A stretch of 44,108 bases of DNA from a virus. The first letter of the stretch is position 1, and the number at the start of each line of letters is the position of its first letter. Both the position numbers and the translations under genes were made by a program. The DNA is taken from the IMG/VR virus record IMGVR_UViG_3300012005_000012, positions 1 to 44,108 of that record. The stretch is one strand, 5' to 3'. This document shows positions 9,286-21,824 of this stretch, piece after piece. A model generated the notes under the pieces. The model saw only the letters and a list, made by a program, of their open reading frames with translations, ran no database searches and was not told where the DNA came from.

Positions 9286-9629
9286 AACTCTATAAATACA
9301 CCTTTGGCGATTGGGAGCTATACGGACCTGCCAATGACGATGCAGACGCCGAGAAGCGAAAGGCAGACGTTGACCCGCAATTCCATTATGTACCTGTGAC
9401 GATAGAGGAGGTGAAGCTAGAGGGATATGAAATCACAGTCAGTCCAGTTTCAACCATGGAGGCAGTTAATTTAGGTAATGGTAGGATAATGACCAAGGAT
9501 GCCTATGTTGATCTCGTTAAAACAATGGACAAGACAGAGTTAAAGAACGCATTACATCGCAAAAACATTGAGTTTCATCATGCTTTAGGCGAGGAAAAGC
9601 TTAGGGAACTTGTAATACAACACATATAA
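9282..9629 (+). CDS. Protein with C-terminal HeH/SAP-like helix-loop-helix (115 aa)
   Basis: N-terminal part resembles a small alpha/beta unit. The last about 40 residues (VKTMDKTELKNALHRKNI, then EEKLRELVI) follow the pattern of HeH/LEM/SAP modules, two helices joined by an extended loop, which bind nucleic acid in several phage and Rho proteins. Domain call is by pattern only. Role near the packaging genes is unknown. Confidence 0.55.
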   Translation: MKLYKYTFGDWELYGPANDDADAEKRKADVDPQFHYVPVTIEEVKLEGYEITVSPVSTMEAVNLGNGRIMTKDAYVDLVKTMDKTELKNALHRKNIEFHHALGEEKLRELVIQHI

Positions 9630-9642
9630 GGGAGTGGTTTAA

Positions 9643-9939
9643 GTGGCAGGATTAGCATATTCAATCGTAGACAACACAGTAGAGGGCAACAAGAGAGTGA
9701 TTACGGCAGACGTAACCTTTGATGCATCCTATCCAACAGGCGGCGAAGTGGTAACGCCAGCAGCGTTAGGACTCGCATCCATTCTGTTTATGCACGTTGG
9801 ATCGAAGGCAGGTAACTTAATTCAGTATGATGCAGCGAACGCTAAGTTAATGGCTTATGTGTCCAGTACAGGCGTTCAAGTAGCTAATGCCGTTGATTTG
9901 TCAGCGGTTATCGTGCGAGTAAGGGTAGTGGGCAACTAA
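9643..9939 (+). CDS. Putative head decoration/structural protein (98 aa)
   Basis: GTG start after AAGGGAGTGGTTTAA. All-beta pattern with ITADVTFDASYPTGGE, an A-LGL segment, YDAANAKL and a closing DLSAVIVRVRVVG. This set recurs in small structural or decoration-like proteins encoded beside phage head genes. Position just before the portal agrees. I cannot tell capsid decoration from another virion role. Confidence 0.6.
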   Translation: MAGLAYSIVDNTVEGNKRVITADVTFDASYPTGGEVVTPAALGLASILFMHVGSKAGNLIQYDAANAKLMAYVSSTGVQVANAVDLSAVIVRVRVVGN

Positions 9940-9965
9940 TCACGCTCATTGAAAGGAGTTGAGTT

Positions 9966-12434
9966 GTGGACAAGTCGTTAGTGCCAACAGATGTTAAGAA
10001 AGATAAGCCGGATCGAATCACCGTAGCCAAGGTTGACGAATATTACCGATTGGCAGAGGATTGGAATGACCTCAGACAGATGATGGTAGATACCAACTAT
10101 TACGCAGACAATCAATGGATAGGGTGGAATCGCGGGGACCGCCGTATTGTTCAACTTCCGATCCAAGATGCCAACCAAGAACGCATCACCTTAAACAAGA
10201 TCAAGCCGAGGGTGCTTACCCTGCTCGCCAAGCATACGAAAAACAAGATCAAGTTTAACGTGGTGGCTGGATCCAAAGAAGATGCAGACGTAGACGCAGC
10301 CAAAGGAGCCGATAAGTTCCTCAAGTTCCTGTGGAATGATTTGGGTATGAGCCAAAAGACCGTCATGATCTTCCTCAATATGCTTATTAAGTCTCGTTGT
10401 GCCGTGAAAACGTGGTTTGATGCGAGCGAAGGGGATGACATCACCCCATCCGATGGGCAAGAAGGCTACGAAGATGGCATGGACAAGATATTCAAAGGCG
10501 AGATAAAAGCCCGAGTATGCGACCCCATGACTATTTTTTACGATCCTGCTGCAACGTGTGAAGAGGAAATACGCTGGATAATCGAACGCCGAGCACGGGA
10601 TGTAGATGAACTGTTTGAGGAATACGGCGTTAAAGTCGTGCCGGATGGAAACCTAGATTCCCTCAATAGCTACGATGTGACAAACATTAACGCAGACGGC
10701 ATCAACGGAACAAACAATAAATCGAAGTCAAACACAGCGCTAACCTCTGAGTTATGGATGAAGCCCTGCAAAAAGTATCCAGGCGGCGTAAAGATTGCAG
10801 CCGCAGGAGGACGGGAGCTAGACTACACTGAGAAATCAGGTGAGTTACCATATACCATCATTGGCTACATTCCAATACCCGGAACAATGAAGTTTCAATC
10901 CGTGGTCAAGTCGATGATTCCGGTGCAGCGTGGGATCAACATTAAACGTTCGATGATTGCAACCCATGCCAAGCGAGTCGGTAACAGCATGTGGACAGTT
11001 CCTTTGGAAGCAGCCGTTGATGAGGAAGAATTGTCCGATGAAATTAGCGGTATCATTCATTTTAGCGCAGCGCATGGTATGAAGCCCGAACGAGTGCCAG
11101 CACCGGATATTCCCTCTTTCTATGATCGAGACTTAGCCAATGATGCACTAGACTTAGATGACATGTCAGGAGCTAGGGAAGTCTCACAAGGTTCTATGCC
11201 GAAAGGTTTGGATACATTGGGTGGATTGCAAATCATGGTGGAGCAGGAAAATGAGAAGCTTACTGTGGGTGCTATGGCGTATGAGGAAGGCATGAAGAAA
11301 GTAATGAGTCGCATCCTCCGGTTGGTACATAAGCATTACAAAGAGGATCGACAAGCCAAGATAGTCGGAGAAGACAACGAGATTGAGATCATCACGTTTA
11401 ATGCTTCTGATTTGACAGGTGACGAAGATATAGAGATTGTCCAAGGATCTAGCTTACCTGAGATGAAAGCTGCCCAAGAAGAACGCTTAATGCTTCTATG
11501 GGACAAAGGTGTATTCATCAAGAAGGACGGAACGCCGGACACAGATACCTTCATGAGATTGATGAACATGGGTGATGCTACACAAGCCTATGACCAAAAA
11601 CATTTGGATGATAATAAGTCGAAGATGGAAAACAAATTCTTTGAAGACCTAGCAGATAATAAACAAGCTGCTCAGGCTTATTTGCAGTACACACAACAGA
11701 AGGATCAAGCAACACAGATCAATCAAGCCATACAACAGCACCCGGATACGCAGGATATGAAGCCACATGAAGTACAACCAATGATGGAGCCGATGCCGCA
11801 ACCGCCGAAAGGCGCACCATTGGTCAGAGACTTCCAAGATCATGAGGTTCATTTGTTTAATCATAATTCATTCCGTAAGTGTAATGAATACGATGAATTG
11901 CCGCCTGAACTTCAACAGGTAGTGGACGCGCACGTGAAAGAGCATGAACAATTATTACAATCTCAACAACCAATGCCAGCAGAGCAACCGTCTGAATCGG
12001 TAGCATTTAAAGATTTACCAATGGCAGGGAAGATCCAATTTGCTGCTAAGTTGGGCATTACCTTAAAGCCTGAAGACTTCCAAGATGCTAACTCACAGCA
12101 AGATAACCAACTGAAACAGCAAGAGTTACAGTTAAAAGCACATGGGCAACAAACAGACGCACAGCTGCAAGCAGCTAAGATCGAAGCAGATAAGCAGAAA
12201 ACAGGCGCACAAATGCAGCATACGCAGGAAATGGCACAGAATAACAACGATCACAGCTTACTAAGTGCCGCTGTACTCGCTGAGCAAGCCCATAATCATC
12301 AAATGGAACATAGCCTAGTCACAAGCGCCGCCGGGCATGAGCAAGGCAAGGAAACGTCACAAATGAGCCATGGTCAACAGATGCAGCGAGATAAGCAGAA
12401 CAATAAAGTCAAGGCAAAGGCGGTGAAAAAATGA
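9966..12434 (+). CDS. Portal protein, P22-like, with long Gln/His-rich C-terminal barrel
   Basis: 822 residues; GTG start after AAAGGAGTTGAGTT. The N-terminal two thirds match short-tailed phage portals: WNDLRQMMVDTNYYADNQW near the start, an RITLNKIKPRVLTLLAKHTKN segment, DPMTIFYDPAATCEEEIRWIIERR, IPGTMKFQSVVKSMIPVQRGINIKRS and GLDTLGGLQIMVEQENEKL. From about residue 560 to the end it is a Gln/His/Lys-rich helical region (QQ, HEQ, KAH repeats), resembling the extended helical barrel of P22 gp1 in composition. The dodecamer would form the DNA channel and dock TerL and the adaptors. Confidence 0.88.
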   Translation: MDKSLVPTDVKKDKPDRITVAKVDEYYRLAEDWNDLRQMMVDTNYYADNQWIGWNRGDRRIVQLPIQDANQERITLNKIKPRVLTLLAKHTKNKIKFNVVAGSKEDADVDAAKGADKFLKFLWNDLGMSQKTVMIFLNMLIKSRCAVKTWFDASEGDDITPSDGQEGYEDGMDKIFKGEIKARVCDPMTIFYDPAATCEEEIRWIIERRARDVDELFEEYGVKVVPDGNLDSLNSYDVTNINADGINGTNNKSKSNTALTSELWMKPCKKYPGGVKIAAAGGRELDYTEKSGELPYTIIGYIPIPGTMKFQSVVKSMIPVQRGINIKRSMIATHAKRVGNSMWTVPLEAAVDEEELSDEISGIIHFSAAHGMKPERVPAPDIPSFYDRDLANDALDLDDMSGAREVSQGSMPKGLDTLGGLQIMVEQENEKLTVGAMAYEEGMKKVMSRILRLVHKHYKEDRQAKIVGEDNEIEIITFNASDLTGDEDIEIVQGSSLPEMKAAQEERLMLLWDKGVFIKKDGTPDTDTFMRLMNMGDATQAYDQKHLDDNKSKMENKFFEDLADNKQAAQAYLQYTQQKDQATQINQAIQQHPDTQDMKPHEVQPMMEPMPQPPKGAPLVRDFQDHEVHLFNHNSFRKCNEYDELPPELQQVVDAHVKEHEQLLQSQQPMPAEQPSESVAFKDLPMAGKIQFAAKLGITLKPEDFQDANSQQDNQLKQQELQLKAHGQQTDAQLQAAKIEADKQKTGAQMQHTQEMAQNNNDHSLLSAAVLAEQAHNHQMEHSLVTSAAGHEQGKETSQMSHGQQMQRDKQNNKVKAKAVKK

Positions 12435-12634
12435 ATCCATTATTAGAGAACAATTTCAAGTATCACTCACCTAAAGAAGGTCAACCTGAGAAGTACACAG
12501 CATTGCGCGACAAGGCAAAAGAACTAGCGTATTTGATTGATGAATTGTGCCCACAAAGCCGTGAAAAATCAGTCGCTTTTACTGAGTTAGAAACCGCAAT
12601 AATGTGGGCAAACGCTTCTATTGCAAGGAATTAA
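12431..12634 (+). CDS. Acb2/Tad1-hairpin-family protein (probable cyclic-nucleotide sponge)
   Basis: 67 residues; ATGA overlap with the portal stop. The core KAKELAYLIDELCPQSREKSVAF and the ending LETAIMWANASIARN form the two-helix hairpin known as the Acb2/Tad1 domain. Known family members bind the signalling nucleotides of CBASS and Thoeris and so blunt these host defences; many short family members have not been tested. The call comes from the conserved S-REKS and L-E-A-MWAN-IARN positions. Activity here is inference. Late expression after the portal is odd for a counter-defence gene, but an extended -10 follows rather than precedes it. Confidence 0.72.
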   Translation: MNPLLENNFKYHSPKEGQPEKYTALRDKAKELAYLIDELCPQSREKSVAFTELETAIMWANASIARN

Positions 12635-12635
12635 A

Positions 12636-12644
12636 TGGTATAAT
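12636..12644 (+). promoter_or_regulatory. Extended -10 element before the homing endonuclease
   Basis: TGGTATAAT, identical to the element at 2635. No strong -35. It sits in a 97-bp gap that also has GAGAG/CTCTC (about 12675-12691) followed by CTTCCCTTAATTTTATT, possibly a weak attenuator. It would give the endonuclease gene its own transcript. Confidence 0.45.
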
Positions 12645-12731
12645 ATAGAGGGATAGACAGGCCAGTCGAAAAGAGAGAATCCTACTCTCCTTCCCTTAAT
12701 TTTATTAGGAACTACTCAGGAGGTAGATGGT

Positions 12732-13379
12732 ATGGGCTTGGTTGTTGATATAGCTGGAAAAAGATTTGGTATTCTTACGGTGACAAGGTTTCATGGGCTA
12801 AATAAAAGAATGAAGTCGATGTGGCAATGTGTTTGCGATTGTGGGAAAGAAAAGTTTTTTGCCGGAGATAACCTCAAAAAGGGCAATACAACTTCTTGTG
12901 GATGTACGAAGTATGCCAAGAACACCAAACATGGAAAGTCAAAATCATTAGAGTATCGGTCATGGGTGAGCATGATAGGAAGATGCAGTAATGATAAGGG
13001 TAAAAGCTATAAAGACTATGGTGGGCGAGGTATAATTATATGCACTAGATGGTTGCAAAGTTTTGAAAGTTTTTTGGAAGATATGGGCAATAAACCTTCT
13101 GCGGAATATAGCATTGATCGAATAGATACGAATGGCAACTATGAACCCAGCAACTGCAAATGGTCGACTAGATCAGAGCAAGAAAGAAATAAAAGAATAA
13201 GCAAACGAAGCACAACGGGTTATCCTGGTGTTATGTGGAACAAAAGAGAAGGAAGGTGGAGAGCAAAAATAACAGTCGATGATAAAAACATACATGTTGG
13301 CGTGTTCAATACAATATCAGAAGCCATAGAAGCACGCAAGCAAGCAGAAATCAAATATTGGAACAAATCATCCATATAG
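12732..13379 (+). CDS. HNH-like homing endonuclease with C-terminal AP2 domain
   Basis: 215 residues; ATG after CAGGAGGTAGATGGT. Residues 31-58 hold WQCVCDCG...SCGC (zinc site). Residues 68-155 hold the HGKS...YRSWVSMIGRCSN...YGGRGI...CTRWLQSFESFLEDMG...SIDRIDTNGNYEPSNCKW unit seen in phage HNH-like homing endonucleases. Residues about 162-210 (GYPGVMWNKREGRWRAKI...AIEARKQAE) are an AP2 DNA-binding domain. Such genes are selfish elements that cut a site in sister phages and spread by repair. It lies between portal (plus the Acb2-like gene) and scaffold, with its own -10; a free-standing invader is likely. Confidence 0.88.
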   Translation: MGLVVDIAGKRFGILTVTRFHGLNKRMKSMWQCVCDCGKEKFFAGDNLKKGNTTSCGCTKYAKNTKHGKSKSLEYRSWVSMIGRCSNDKGKSYKDYGGRGIIICTRWLQSFESFLEDMGNKPSAEYSIDRIDTNGNYEPSNCKWSTRSEQERNKRISKRSTTGYPGVMWNKREGRWRAKITVDDKNIHVGVFNTISEAIEARKQAEIKYWNKSSI

Positions 13380-13394
13380 GGTGCTTTTTTTACG

Positions 13395-13476
13395 GGCTTC
13401 GGTTGAGACTGCCGGAGCCTATTCTCATGCAATAAATTCGTAGCGGCGTTGATCGTGTGGAGTGCGCCGCCCACAC
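13395..13476 (+). promoter_or_regulatory. Structured leader of the scaffold gene (hairpin plus pseudoknot-like element)
   Basis: First a hairpin: GGCTTCGG (13395-13402) with CCGGAGCC (13412-13419), one G-U pair, 9-nt loop. Then interlocked stems: GCGGCG (13443-13448) with CGCCGC (13465-13470), and GTGTGG (13455-13460) with CCACAC (13471-13476), each six perfect pairs. They either form an H-type pseudoknot or two mutually exclusive hairpins. The second stem touches the AAGGAGG ribosome site (13477-13483) of the scaffold start at 13491. Translation control of scaffold is the natural reading; P22 scaffold is known to be autoregulated after transcription. Confidence 0.6.
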
Positions 13477-13490
13477 AAGGAGGAAACAAA

Positions 13491-14255
13491 ATGGAAGAAT
13501 TGAATCAAGAAGTATCGGGCGTTGAAGAACAGACTCAGGTCGCCGTTGAGCCAACAGAAGTACCGCAACCAGTTGTTGAATCGGGCGCTGAAAAAGAGGT
13601 CGCCGCCGAACCTAACAACTTTGAAAAAGCCTTTGCCAAGCGCTTAGCCGCAAAAGAAGCTGAATGGGAAGCAAAGAACAACGAGAAATACAAGGATTAC
13701 GACACGCACAAACAGTTAAGCGAGTACTTCCAAAAGATCAACAATTCAGATGCGTTGACTCTCAAAGAACGTGTCGAGATGGAAAAGCTTCAAGAGCGCG
13801 CAGATCAAGCCAATGTGCCACCGGAAGTCATGAAACGGTTGGATGAGTTGGAAGCCAAGGCAGCAAAGGGTGACGAGTTAGAAAAGAAACAACAGGAAGA
13901 TCAGCGTGTAACGGATTACTTCTCCATAATGGAAAAAGTTTTGAAAGATAAGGGTGTCAATGCGCAAGACTTGAATCAGTTCATGGTTGACAACGAAATG
14001 CACTACAACCCGAACGCAATGGAAAAGAGTTTCGAGCTTGCTCTGAAAGCCTTTAAGGCAGACGATGCCATAGCGAAGCTGGAAACAGCCAAGAAAGACG
14101 CAGTAAACGAGTATCTTTCATCCAAAAAGGGTGTAAAGGTAGAAGGTGCACCCGGTTCAGCAAGTGTCCAAGCGGTGGATACAAAGAAAATGTCATGGGA
14201 TCAGTTAGATAGGCACGTTTTAGAGCGCGTCAAAGCAATGAATACACCACAATAA
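13491..14255 (+). CDS. Capsid scaffolding protein
   Basis: 254 residues; start at 13491 after AAGGAGGAAACAAA (an upstream in-frame start at 13449 would lie inside the structured leader). Very acidic, Glu/Val/Pro-rich N-terminus, long charged helices (about 45-140, EKAFAKRLAAKEAEWEAKNNEKY, KRLDELEAKAAKGDELEKK), and a Lys-rich C-terminus. This composition and the position immediately before the coat gene define phage scaffolds. It guides coat assembly into a prohead and then leaves or is degraded. Confidence 0.85.
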   Translation: MEELNQEVSGVEEQTQVAVEPTEVPQPVVESGAEKEVAAEPNNFEKAFAKRLAAKEAEWEAKNNEKYKDYDTHKQLSEYFQKINNSDALTLKERVEMEKLQERADQANVPPEVMKRLDELEAKAAKGDELEKKQQEDQRVTDYFSIMEKVLKDKGVNAQDLNQFMVDNEMHYNPNAMEKSFELALKAFKADDAIAKLETAKKDAVNEYLSSKKGVKVEGAPGSASVQAVDTKKMSWDQLDRHVLERVKAMNTPQ

Positions 14256-14270
14256 CAGGAGAGTGACCAC

Positions 14271-15455
14271 ATGGGCGCAACATTATCAACCATCGGTGAG
14301 GTATTGAAGATAGATTACCTCCCGAAAATCGAGGAAATGGTGAACAACGGCTGTAATTATTTCATCATGAAGTTGATGGCAGGAACGGAGGAAATGCCCG
14401 GAGGCGGTAAAAACTTCTCTATTCCTCATCACTTCGGACGCAATAGCGGAGTAGGTGCTGGAACAGAGACAGGCGCATTACCAACCGCAGGAAACCAAGC
14501 CTACAAAGCTTCTACTGGTAATGTAGCTTACGTACATGGACGTTTGCAAGTGTCTAACGCTTCCATTCAGGCTTCCAAGAAGGACGCTACAACGTATGTA
14601 AAGGAAATGTCTGCTGAGGTTAAAGGATTACAGACAGACCTTCAAAACTACCGTAAGCGTGCTTTCATGGGTGACGGTACAGGAAAATTAGCGACTCTAG
14701 CTGCCAACACAACAACCAACGTTTTGGTTGTAGATAATGTGCGCAACTTTTTCACCAATCAGATCATTGACATTATTTTGTTAAATGCAACCGTAGACAC
14801 AGCGGCAAGAACAATAACAGCCATTGACTACGACGCTAAGACAATCACCATTAGCGGAGCAGCCGTTACGACTTTAGCAACAAGCTATATTGTGAACACG
14901 GGTACGTTGAATCTTGATCCTCAGGGGTTAGGAAGTATCATTTCTAAGACTTCCACACTTCAAGGATTGGACGTTGCAACATATCCTTGGTGGGTATCCA
15001 CTATCATGGGTAACTCAGGTACAGCGATTGCGATCACAGAAGCGCGGATTCGTGCATTGATTGACCGTATTGACATTGTTTCTGGCAAGAAAGTCGATTG
15101 GCTGGCAACAACTCACGGAGTTCGGGCATCCTATGAAGCTTTGTTGACTTCGCTTAAGCGGTACACCAATCCAATGCAATTGGACGGAGGTTATACTGCT
15201 CTCGAGTTTGACGGATTGCCTTTGATCGTGGATCGCTACAAGGACGACAATACCATTTGGGGTGGAAACTTCGATAACATGGACATTTACCAAACGGCTA
15301 AATTACAGTTTATGGAAGAAGATGGAAGTATGTTCAATCGTATTGCCAATTCGCCAGCGTACGAGGCGACCTGCTTCCTTTATGAAACACTGATCTGTGA
15401 CGACAGGCGCGCCTACGGCAGCTTGGAGGATATAACTGTACCAGCATCGTACTAG
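14271..15455 (+). CDS. Major capsid (coat) protein
   Basis: 394 residues; ATG after CAGGAGAGTGACCAC. An N-terminal helical arm is followed by FSIPHHFGRNSGVGAGTETG, QAYKASTGNVAYVHGRLQVSN and a C-terminal domain with the typical DGLPLIVDRY...G-N-DNMDIYQTAKLQF strand set of HK97-fold coats. Residues about 150-210 look like an inserted beta-rich domain (repeated I/V alternation, NTGTLNLDPQG), comparable in place to extra domains of P22-like coats but not shown to be the same. It follows scaffold and precedes the adaptors. Confidence 0.88.
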   Translation: MGATLSTIGEVLKIDYLPKIEEMVNNGCNYFIMKLMAGTEEMPGGGKNFSIPHHFGRNSGVGAGTETGALPTAGNQAYKASTGNVAYVHGRLQVSNASIQASKKDATTYVKEMSAEVKGLQTDLQNYRKRAFMGDGTGKLATLAANTTTNVLVVDNVRNFFTNQIIDIILLNATVDTAARTITAIDYDAKTITISGAAVTTLATSYIVNTGTLNLDPQGLGSIISKTSTLQGLDVATYPWWVSTIMGNSGTAIAITEARIRALIDRIDIVSGKKVDWLATTHGVRASYEALLTSLKRYTNPMQLDGGYTALEFDGLPLIVDRYKDDNTIWGGNFDNMDIYQTAKLQFMEEDGSMFNRIANSPAYEATCFLYETLICDDRRAYGSLEDITVPASY

Positions 15456-21083: not shown

Positions 21084-21824
21084 ATGAAACTATTCTACCT
21101 TATCGCCTATGCCTATCACAGGCTTTTTCGTTTTATTTATCGCAGAAAAGGGAAGTATCAAACCATTGACTTTCAGCATCATCACCACAAAATGAAGAAG
21201 TATAAAGGACTTTTGGCACTCGTAGCCATAGTCCTTTTTCTTTGCACGAAAACAACGACAGCCGACATCATGACTAGCGAAGATAAAACAATCGTATTAG
21301 GCGAATCCCTACCGCACTCCATTGTTATAGTCAACGATAGCTTAGGTCATGGATCAGGTTTTTTCATCAGCCCGCATGAAGTGATCACAGATGAGCATGT
21401 CATACACAACGCCGACAATGTATCTATCGTAGACAACAAAGGCAAACAATGTCCTGCTACAGTCTACTACGCCGATTCTAACGAGGATTTAGCGTTGTTA
21501 GATACAAAGTGCGATGGTACGCCGCTTAAGCTTGCAACGTCCGTCAAGATAGGTCAAACAGTGGTCATGATGGGCAATCCCGAAGATCAGCAATTCTTCT
21601 TAACCAAGGGAATCGTGAGCAATCTCAGCCGTTATTTTGTGGGATTCGATGCCATGAACATACCGGGAGATAGCGGCGCACCAATTCTGAACTTAAATGG
21701 CGAAGTCTTAGGCGTAGCAAGGTGGGTATATAACGTTTCCCCGAGAGTCGGAATAGCCACAAACGATGAAACGTTAAGCGAGTTTATCGCCACAGTATCT
21801 TATTTAAAAGCAAAGGAGAATTGA
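21084..21824 (+). CDS. Membrane-anchored trypsin-like serine protease
   Basis: 246 residues; ATG after AGAAAGGACTAAAA. A basic N-terminus (1-40, with a natural HHHH at 32-35) precedes a hydrophobic span at about 41-54, so export or inner-membrane anchoring is likely. The catalytic part has the HtrA-like order: GHGSGFFISPHEVITDEHV with His105, NEDLALL with Asp135 and PGDSGAPIL with Ser197. All three triad residues are present; no PDZ domain follows. Placed between tailspike and ejection proteins, it could process a virion protein, cut host surface proteins, or act on entry. Substrate unknown. Confidence 0.85.
   Translation: MKLFYLIAYAYHRLFRFIYRRKGKYQTIDFQHHHHKMKKYKGLLALVAIVLFLCTKTTTADIMTSEDKTIVLGESLPHSIVIVNDSLGHGSGFFISPHEVITDEHVIHNADNVSIVDNKGKQCPATVYYADSNEDLALLDTKCDGTPLKLATSVKIGQTVVMMGNPEDQQFFLTKGIVSNLSRYFVGFDAMNIPGDSGAPILNLNGEVLGVARWVYNVSPRVGIATNDETLSEFIATVSYLKAKEN

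Follow-up and report, generated by a model that had tools for sequence, protein, structure and literature searches.

A minimal Acb2-family gene inserted between portal and scaffold genes in the head operon of a virus

Introduction

Among the described systems closest to the locus considered here are the Acb2 proteins of phage T4 (Vs.4, 88 aa) and Pseudomonas (94 aa). The Acb2 protomer is built from one short N-terminal helix and two long antiparallel helices (PMC10419184). In T4 Acb2, dinucleotide binding is abolished by the Y8A mutation and reduced by F82C (PMC12657218), and decreased binding has also been reported for T68M (PMC12657230). Tad1 has a C-terminal helical hairpin with an R-E...T..EEALMW core, preceded by an N-terminal beta-sheet domain that makes up much of the gcADPR pocket of the protomer (PMC12043709). 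Two further sponge families, Tad2 (PF11195) and Acb4 (PF13876; PMC11722364), have folds unrelated to that of Acb2.

Links between signalling immunity and late phage genes are also documented. In staphylococcal phages, the CBASS-activating cabRNA originates from terS/terL and escapers map to the scaffold gene product gp46 (PMC10686824), while a phage devoid of Acb2 escapes CBASS through mutations in its major capsid protein (PMC10419184). Acb2 itself sets off Panoptes (PMC12657218). As to gene position, T4 vs.4 adjoins regB and vs, and the acb2 genes of three actinophages lie outside the head region as judged by gene number (PMC13348362, PMC11953737). The gene analysed here, in contrast to that of T4, is located in a head operon. 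It belongs to a 44,108-nucleotide stretch of viral DNA (IMG/VR record IMGVR_UViG_3300012005_000012), referred to below as the window.

An acb2-like gene overlapping the portal gene

The reading frame at 12431..12634 (+ strand) runs from ATG to TAA and encodes a protein of 67 aa (MNPLLENNFKYHSPKEGQPEKYTALRDKAKELAYLIDELCPQSREKSVAFTELETAIMWANASIARN), exactly as described in a first-pass annotation made from the sequence alone. Its start codon overlaps the stop codon of the portal gene in an ATGA motif (12431..12434, +), which agrees with the proposed coupling to a structural gene and makes translational coupling of portal and acb2 likely; a GGTG tetranucleotide 5 nt upstream of the ATG (12422..12425, +) may serve as a weak Shine-Dalgarno-like site. 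The portal protein (822 aa; 9966..12434, +) is recognized by PF16510 P22_portal (E 1.6e-14) and the portal family phrog_156 (E 1.6e-55). The gene directly 3′ of acb2, in the same insertion, encodes a free-standing HNH/AP2 homing-type endonuclease (12732..13379, +; phrog_374, E 4e-79; AP2, E 7e-5), and only then comes the scaffold gene (13491..14255, +). The location between portal and scaffold given in the first-pass annotation is thus accurate as to the portal, which is directly upstream, but an endonuclease gene intervenes on the scaffold side. The scaffold product gave no match in the Pfam search and owes its label to its position and conservation between the portal gene and the major capsid gene (14271..15455, +), the latter also assigned by position, with 52–75% identity in relatives.

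A promoter and terminator scan of positions 9500–14400 returned no more sites than shuffled sequences, so that no promoter of its own can be claimed for acb2. The Rfam scan of the window was without match and thus gave no sign that the HNH gene lies within a described intron, and Pfam gave no other sponge match near the portal within the window. Elsewhere in the window are found a PAPS-reductase-domain protein (PF01507) at its very start (1–903) and, amid tail/injection genes, a trypsin-like serine protease with an N-terminal hydrophobic stretch (21084–21824; PF13365, E 1e-23).

Family membership and conservation

The 67-aa protein matches PF24729 (Acb2_Tad1_hairpin) over 58 of 58 model columns (E 5.4e-24), and its 84.6 bits against a curated cut-off of 27 bits bear out the Acb2/Tad1-family call of the earlier annotation. 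The same Pfam domain is found in T4 Vs.4, a tested Acb2 (E 7e-20). In a PDB search with a profile of 63 close relatives, the nearest solved sequence was Acb2 homolog 43 (9ptq, an entry with six chains; E 1.4e-5), with the REKS...LEEA core common to both proteins but without the WANAxIAR stretch of the 67-aa protein; Tad1 entries, which have the hairpin core in common with it, were retrieved more weakly (E 0.005). Judged by these profiles, the protein is a new member of the known Acb2 family with a complete domain. It is shorter than the solved members (76 residues in homolog 43, in addition to the lengths given above), as had been noted for tested ones. A search with PADLOC gave no match, as expected of a library devoted to defence rather than anti-defence.

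Homologues are widespread, with 119 confirmed relatives in viral contigs (64–87% identity for the best 80 of the 119), homologues in 25 genome contigs, Firmicutes in nearly all according to their titles, and 380 phage records containing them. The gene is under strong purifying selection: dN among homologues is 0.10–0.18 while dS is saturated or >1.5, and dN/dS is 0.06–0.07 where dS is measurable. A chance reading frame is ruled out by the PF24729 match, the many relatives and the low dN. This adds to the sponge family a minimal form of 67 aa, which is widespread and under strong conservation in phages and prophages of Firmicutes and there mostly goes unnamed or misnamed. Members of phrog_1454 (E 3.5e-28 for the protein of the window) and homologues in Paenibacillus larvae phages (70–82% identity) have the same length, but unlike the gene of the window they lie near a RinA-type regulator, as in phage Hayley, or within the replication region, as in phage Heath. 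In several Paenibacillus larvae phage records (KT361655, MH460826 and others) close homologues are labelled ‘phosphomannomutase’, a label to which a 67-aa hairpin gives no support.

Variations on the hairpin also occur. A short Cys-rich (zinc-ribbon-like, CxxC) N-terminal extension joined to the Acb2 hairpin is a fused sponge form (L012:4920-5189, L030:4911-5192, L045:4872-5195, L073:4899-5204). In two large phage contigs (L078:4842-5198, L080:4830-5189), an N-terminal domain of about 57 residues precedes the hairpin; it is possibly strand-rich and could represent a Tad1-like arrangement. A subgroup (L031, L036, L068, L143) has a C-terminal extension beyond the hairpin.

Predicted fold and ligand-binding residues

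The AF2 model of the 67-aa protein (pLDDT 89.9, pTM 0.67) comprises helices at residues 3–8, 18–39 and 44–66 and no strand. As modelled, the protein fits the Acb2 protomer, whose helix order it reproduces, and not the Tad1 protomer, since the beta-sheet domain found ahead of the Tad1 hairpin is absent from the model. In the Foldseek ranking the T4 Vs.4 entry with cGAMP came out on top, followed by Pseudomonas Acb2, with Tad1 in fourth place. The E-values (0.4–1.9) fall short of significance for a helical hairpin of this small size, so the ranking is in keeping with the profile search but is no proof taken by itself. According to the alignment, T4 Acb2 contains an insertion of about 20 residues between the two long helices that is missing from the 67-aa protein, which accounts for the small size of the latter without truncation of the domain itself.

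In the alignment with T4 Vs.4 (27% identity), Y8, T68 and W76 of T4 correspond to Y11, T51 and W59, and F82 to A65, next to an invariant R66. Two of three T4 ligand-binding residues are therefore kept (Y11, conserved in 90% or more of the 63 relatives, and T51, found in all of them), whereas the counterpart of F82 is replaced, so that the ligand preference of the 67-aa protein may differ. The counterparts of R26, R44 and T51 in Pseudomonas Acb2 are K26, R67 and T74 (R44 and T51 aligned by hand); K26 and R67 presumably contribute to the di- and trinucleotide pockets. A lack of binding-pocket residues, which the first-pass annotation had named as part of what would refute it, is not seen here, since Y11 and T51 are retained. 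The fold and the retention of pocket residues have the backing of prediction, and nucleotide binding itself is presumed.

The portal–scaffold junction in phages with a related portal

The comparison covered 37 viral contigs encoding a related portal (45–61% identity). None of the 37 encodes a PF24729 protein anywhere; the search found no match in control genomes but recovered the acb2 of the window. The junction, a cargo site at 12435..13490 (+), spans 1,056 bp in the window, where it is occupied by acb2 and the endonuclease gene. It is empty in many relatives, with gaps of 85–230 bp, and in the closest of them (L086, capsid protein 75% identical) it measures 94 bp. The two genes are therefore an insertion relative to related phages.

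In 9 of the 37 contigs the junction contains one to three tandem Tad2 (PF11195) genes (L094–L099, L112, L114, L121), although the set includes near-identical phages as well as fragmentary copies (L095, L114, L121), so that independent events are fewer than contigs. A PF13876 gene follows Tad2 in four of the nine (L096, L097, L098, L112), and in four further contigs Tad2 lies upstream of the portal gene. Other junctions carry a GDSL lipase (L087) or short proteins with no Pfam match among those scanned (L089–L091, L104, L106–L108, L110, L118).

Location of acb2 homologues beside other portals

Fifty contigs encoding a close relative of acb2 were examined. In 28 of them a portal (PF04860, PF05133) or Mu-F (PF04233) gene was located, always on the same strand as acb2 (28/28); in the other 22 no portal was detectable. 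Compared with other small genes (50–110 aa) of the same contigs, acb2 is enriched close to these head genes, lying 0–3.5 kb downstream in 13 of 28 (2.5 expected) and within 6 kb in 26 of 28 (6.5 expected). The tendency persists in those contigs of these Firmicutes-type phages that reach at least 30 kb (10 of 23 versus 1.3 expected, and 21 of 23 versus 4.2 expected, respectively). Averaging by portal cluster gives 7.8 of 16 versus 0.9 expected (p ~6e-6), the p-values being somewhat optimistic because the distance zones were picked after the distances had been seen. Counts of the adjacent genes by Pfam and PHROG family point the same way, with portals, minor head proteins, scaffolds, maturation proteases and small terminases, which belong to several unrelated types. 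HNH endonucleases as a general vehicle of acb2 found no support in these tallies. Within the 50 contigs Acb4 is absent (0/50) and Tad2 occurs once (1/50), in a contig (L013/L073) where it stops some 30 bp short of one acb2, while a second acb2, with the Cys-rich N-terminal extension, follows the Mu-F gene. Given the actinophage and T4 relatives outside the head operon and the 22 contigs without detectable portal, this siting is a tendency.

Function and rival explanations

The locus probably encodes a minimal Acb2-type CBASS sponge, inserted together with an HNH/AP2 gene at the portal–scaffold cargo site and translated from the late head operon. Its protomers, each with a short helix and a pair of long ones, would form an assembly, by analogy with Acb2 a hexamer, and would sequester CBASS cyclic di- and/or trinucleotides, or the cA3 of type III CRISPR systems, so that effectors stay off. 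With its translation presumably tied to the portal gene of the late head operon by the ATGA overlap, the sponge would be made alongside terminase, portal and scaffold, at the stage where the known triggers of CBASS and the mutations that escape it arise. Late transcription and a benefit to the phage are likewise presumed. Portal-coupled expression would be sensible, given that CBASS is triggered by, or escaped through, products of the same operon; more speculatively, the risk of setting off Panoptes may favour late and limited expression.

It is possible, if rather doubtful, that acb2 is a passenger that came with the mobile HNH/AP2 gene and owes its place in the head operon solely to the tolerance of such junctions for cargo; its position would then lack regulatory meaning, and the protein might still be a sponge. 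The first-pass annotation had raised this idea, which holds insofar as an endonuclease gene lies directly downstream, the nearest relative has an almost empty junction, and the site also takes non-sponge cargo (L087 lipase, L090, L104). It accounts poorly, however, for the enrichment of acb2 beside unrelated portals beyond that of other small genes, and for other recognizable sponges at the junction of relatives without a recognized HNH gene; moreover, HNH families are missing from the listed downstream families that recur beside homologues, which argues against HNH as a general vehicle.

Two other readings fare worse. An anti-Thoeris, Tad1-like protein trapping gcADPR would account for the shared C-terminal hairpin family and the weak profile match to Tad1 chains, but is improbable in a strandless model lacking the sheet that forms much of that pocket (PMC12043709); CBASS is the likelier target, and while the earlier reading proved largely right, its family call included, its Thoeris part is doubtful. 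Even less probable is a head-assembly accessory protein resembling Acb2 in fold only: portal, scaffold and protease genes do recur as neighbours, but acb2 is missing from 37 of 37 related-portal contigs, the neighbouring portals are of unrelated types, and close homologues also reside in replication regions (Heath).

The preferred reading, a CBASS sponge, can be tentatively widened, at somewhat less than even expectation, to the view that Firmicutes-type phages have repeatedly placed unrelated sponges (Acb2, Tad2, Acb4) in packaging and head-operon junctions, forming a head-operon sponge island matched to the timing and dose of the trigger. If so, synthesis of a decoy would match, in moment and amount, the capsid-stage products by which signalling immunity is triggered, a link directly testable by relocating the gene. 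A sponge-rich head-operon junction, of which no description was found in the literature searched, is the part that a specialist may not expect, and the portal–scaffold junction becomes a concrete site to search for new anti-signalling genes.

Further occupants of the junction

Between portal and scaffold, L097 (7065-8105) and likewise L096, L098 and L112 carry an Acb4 gene behind two or three divergent Tad2 genes in tandem, so that about 1 kb holds as many as four predicted sponge genes. In L108 (4204-4749) and L118, two junction reading frames with no Pfam match resemble divergent Tad2 (RRGW...DWEIAT). A recurrent junction protein of 75–86 aa (TPDDD...TRGxxVGxxGDLxVxMxDGTxV; L104:7115-7342, L106:1659-1889, L089, L090, L091, L110), followed in L090, L091 and L110 by a 196-aa protein, is possibly a head decoration protein.
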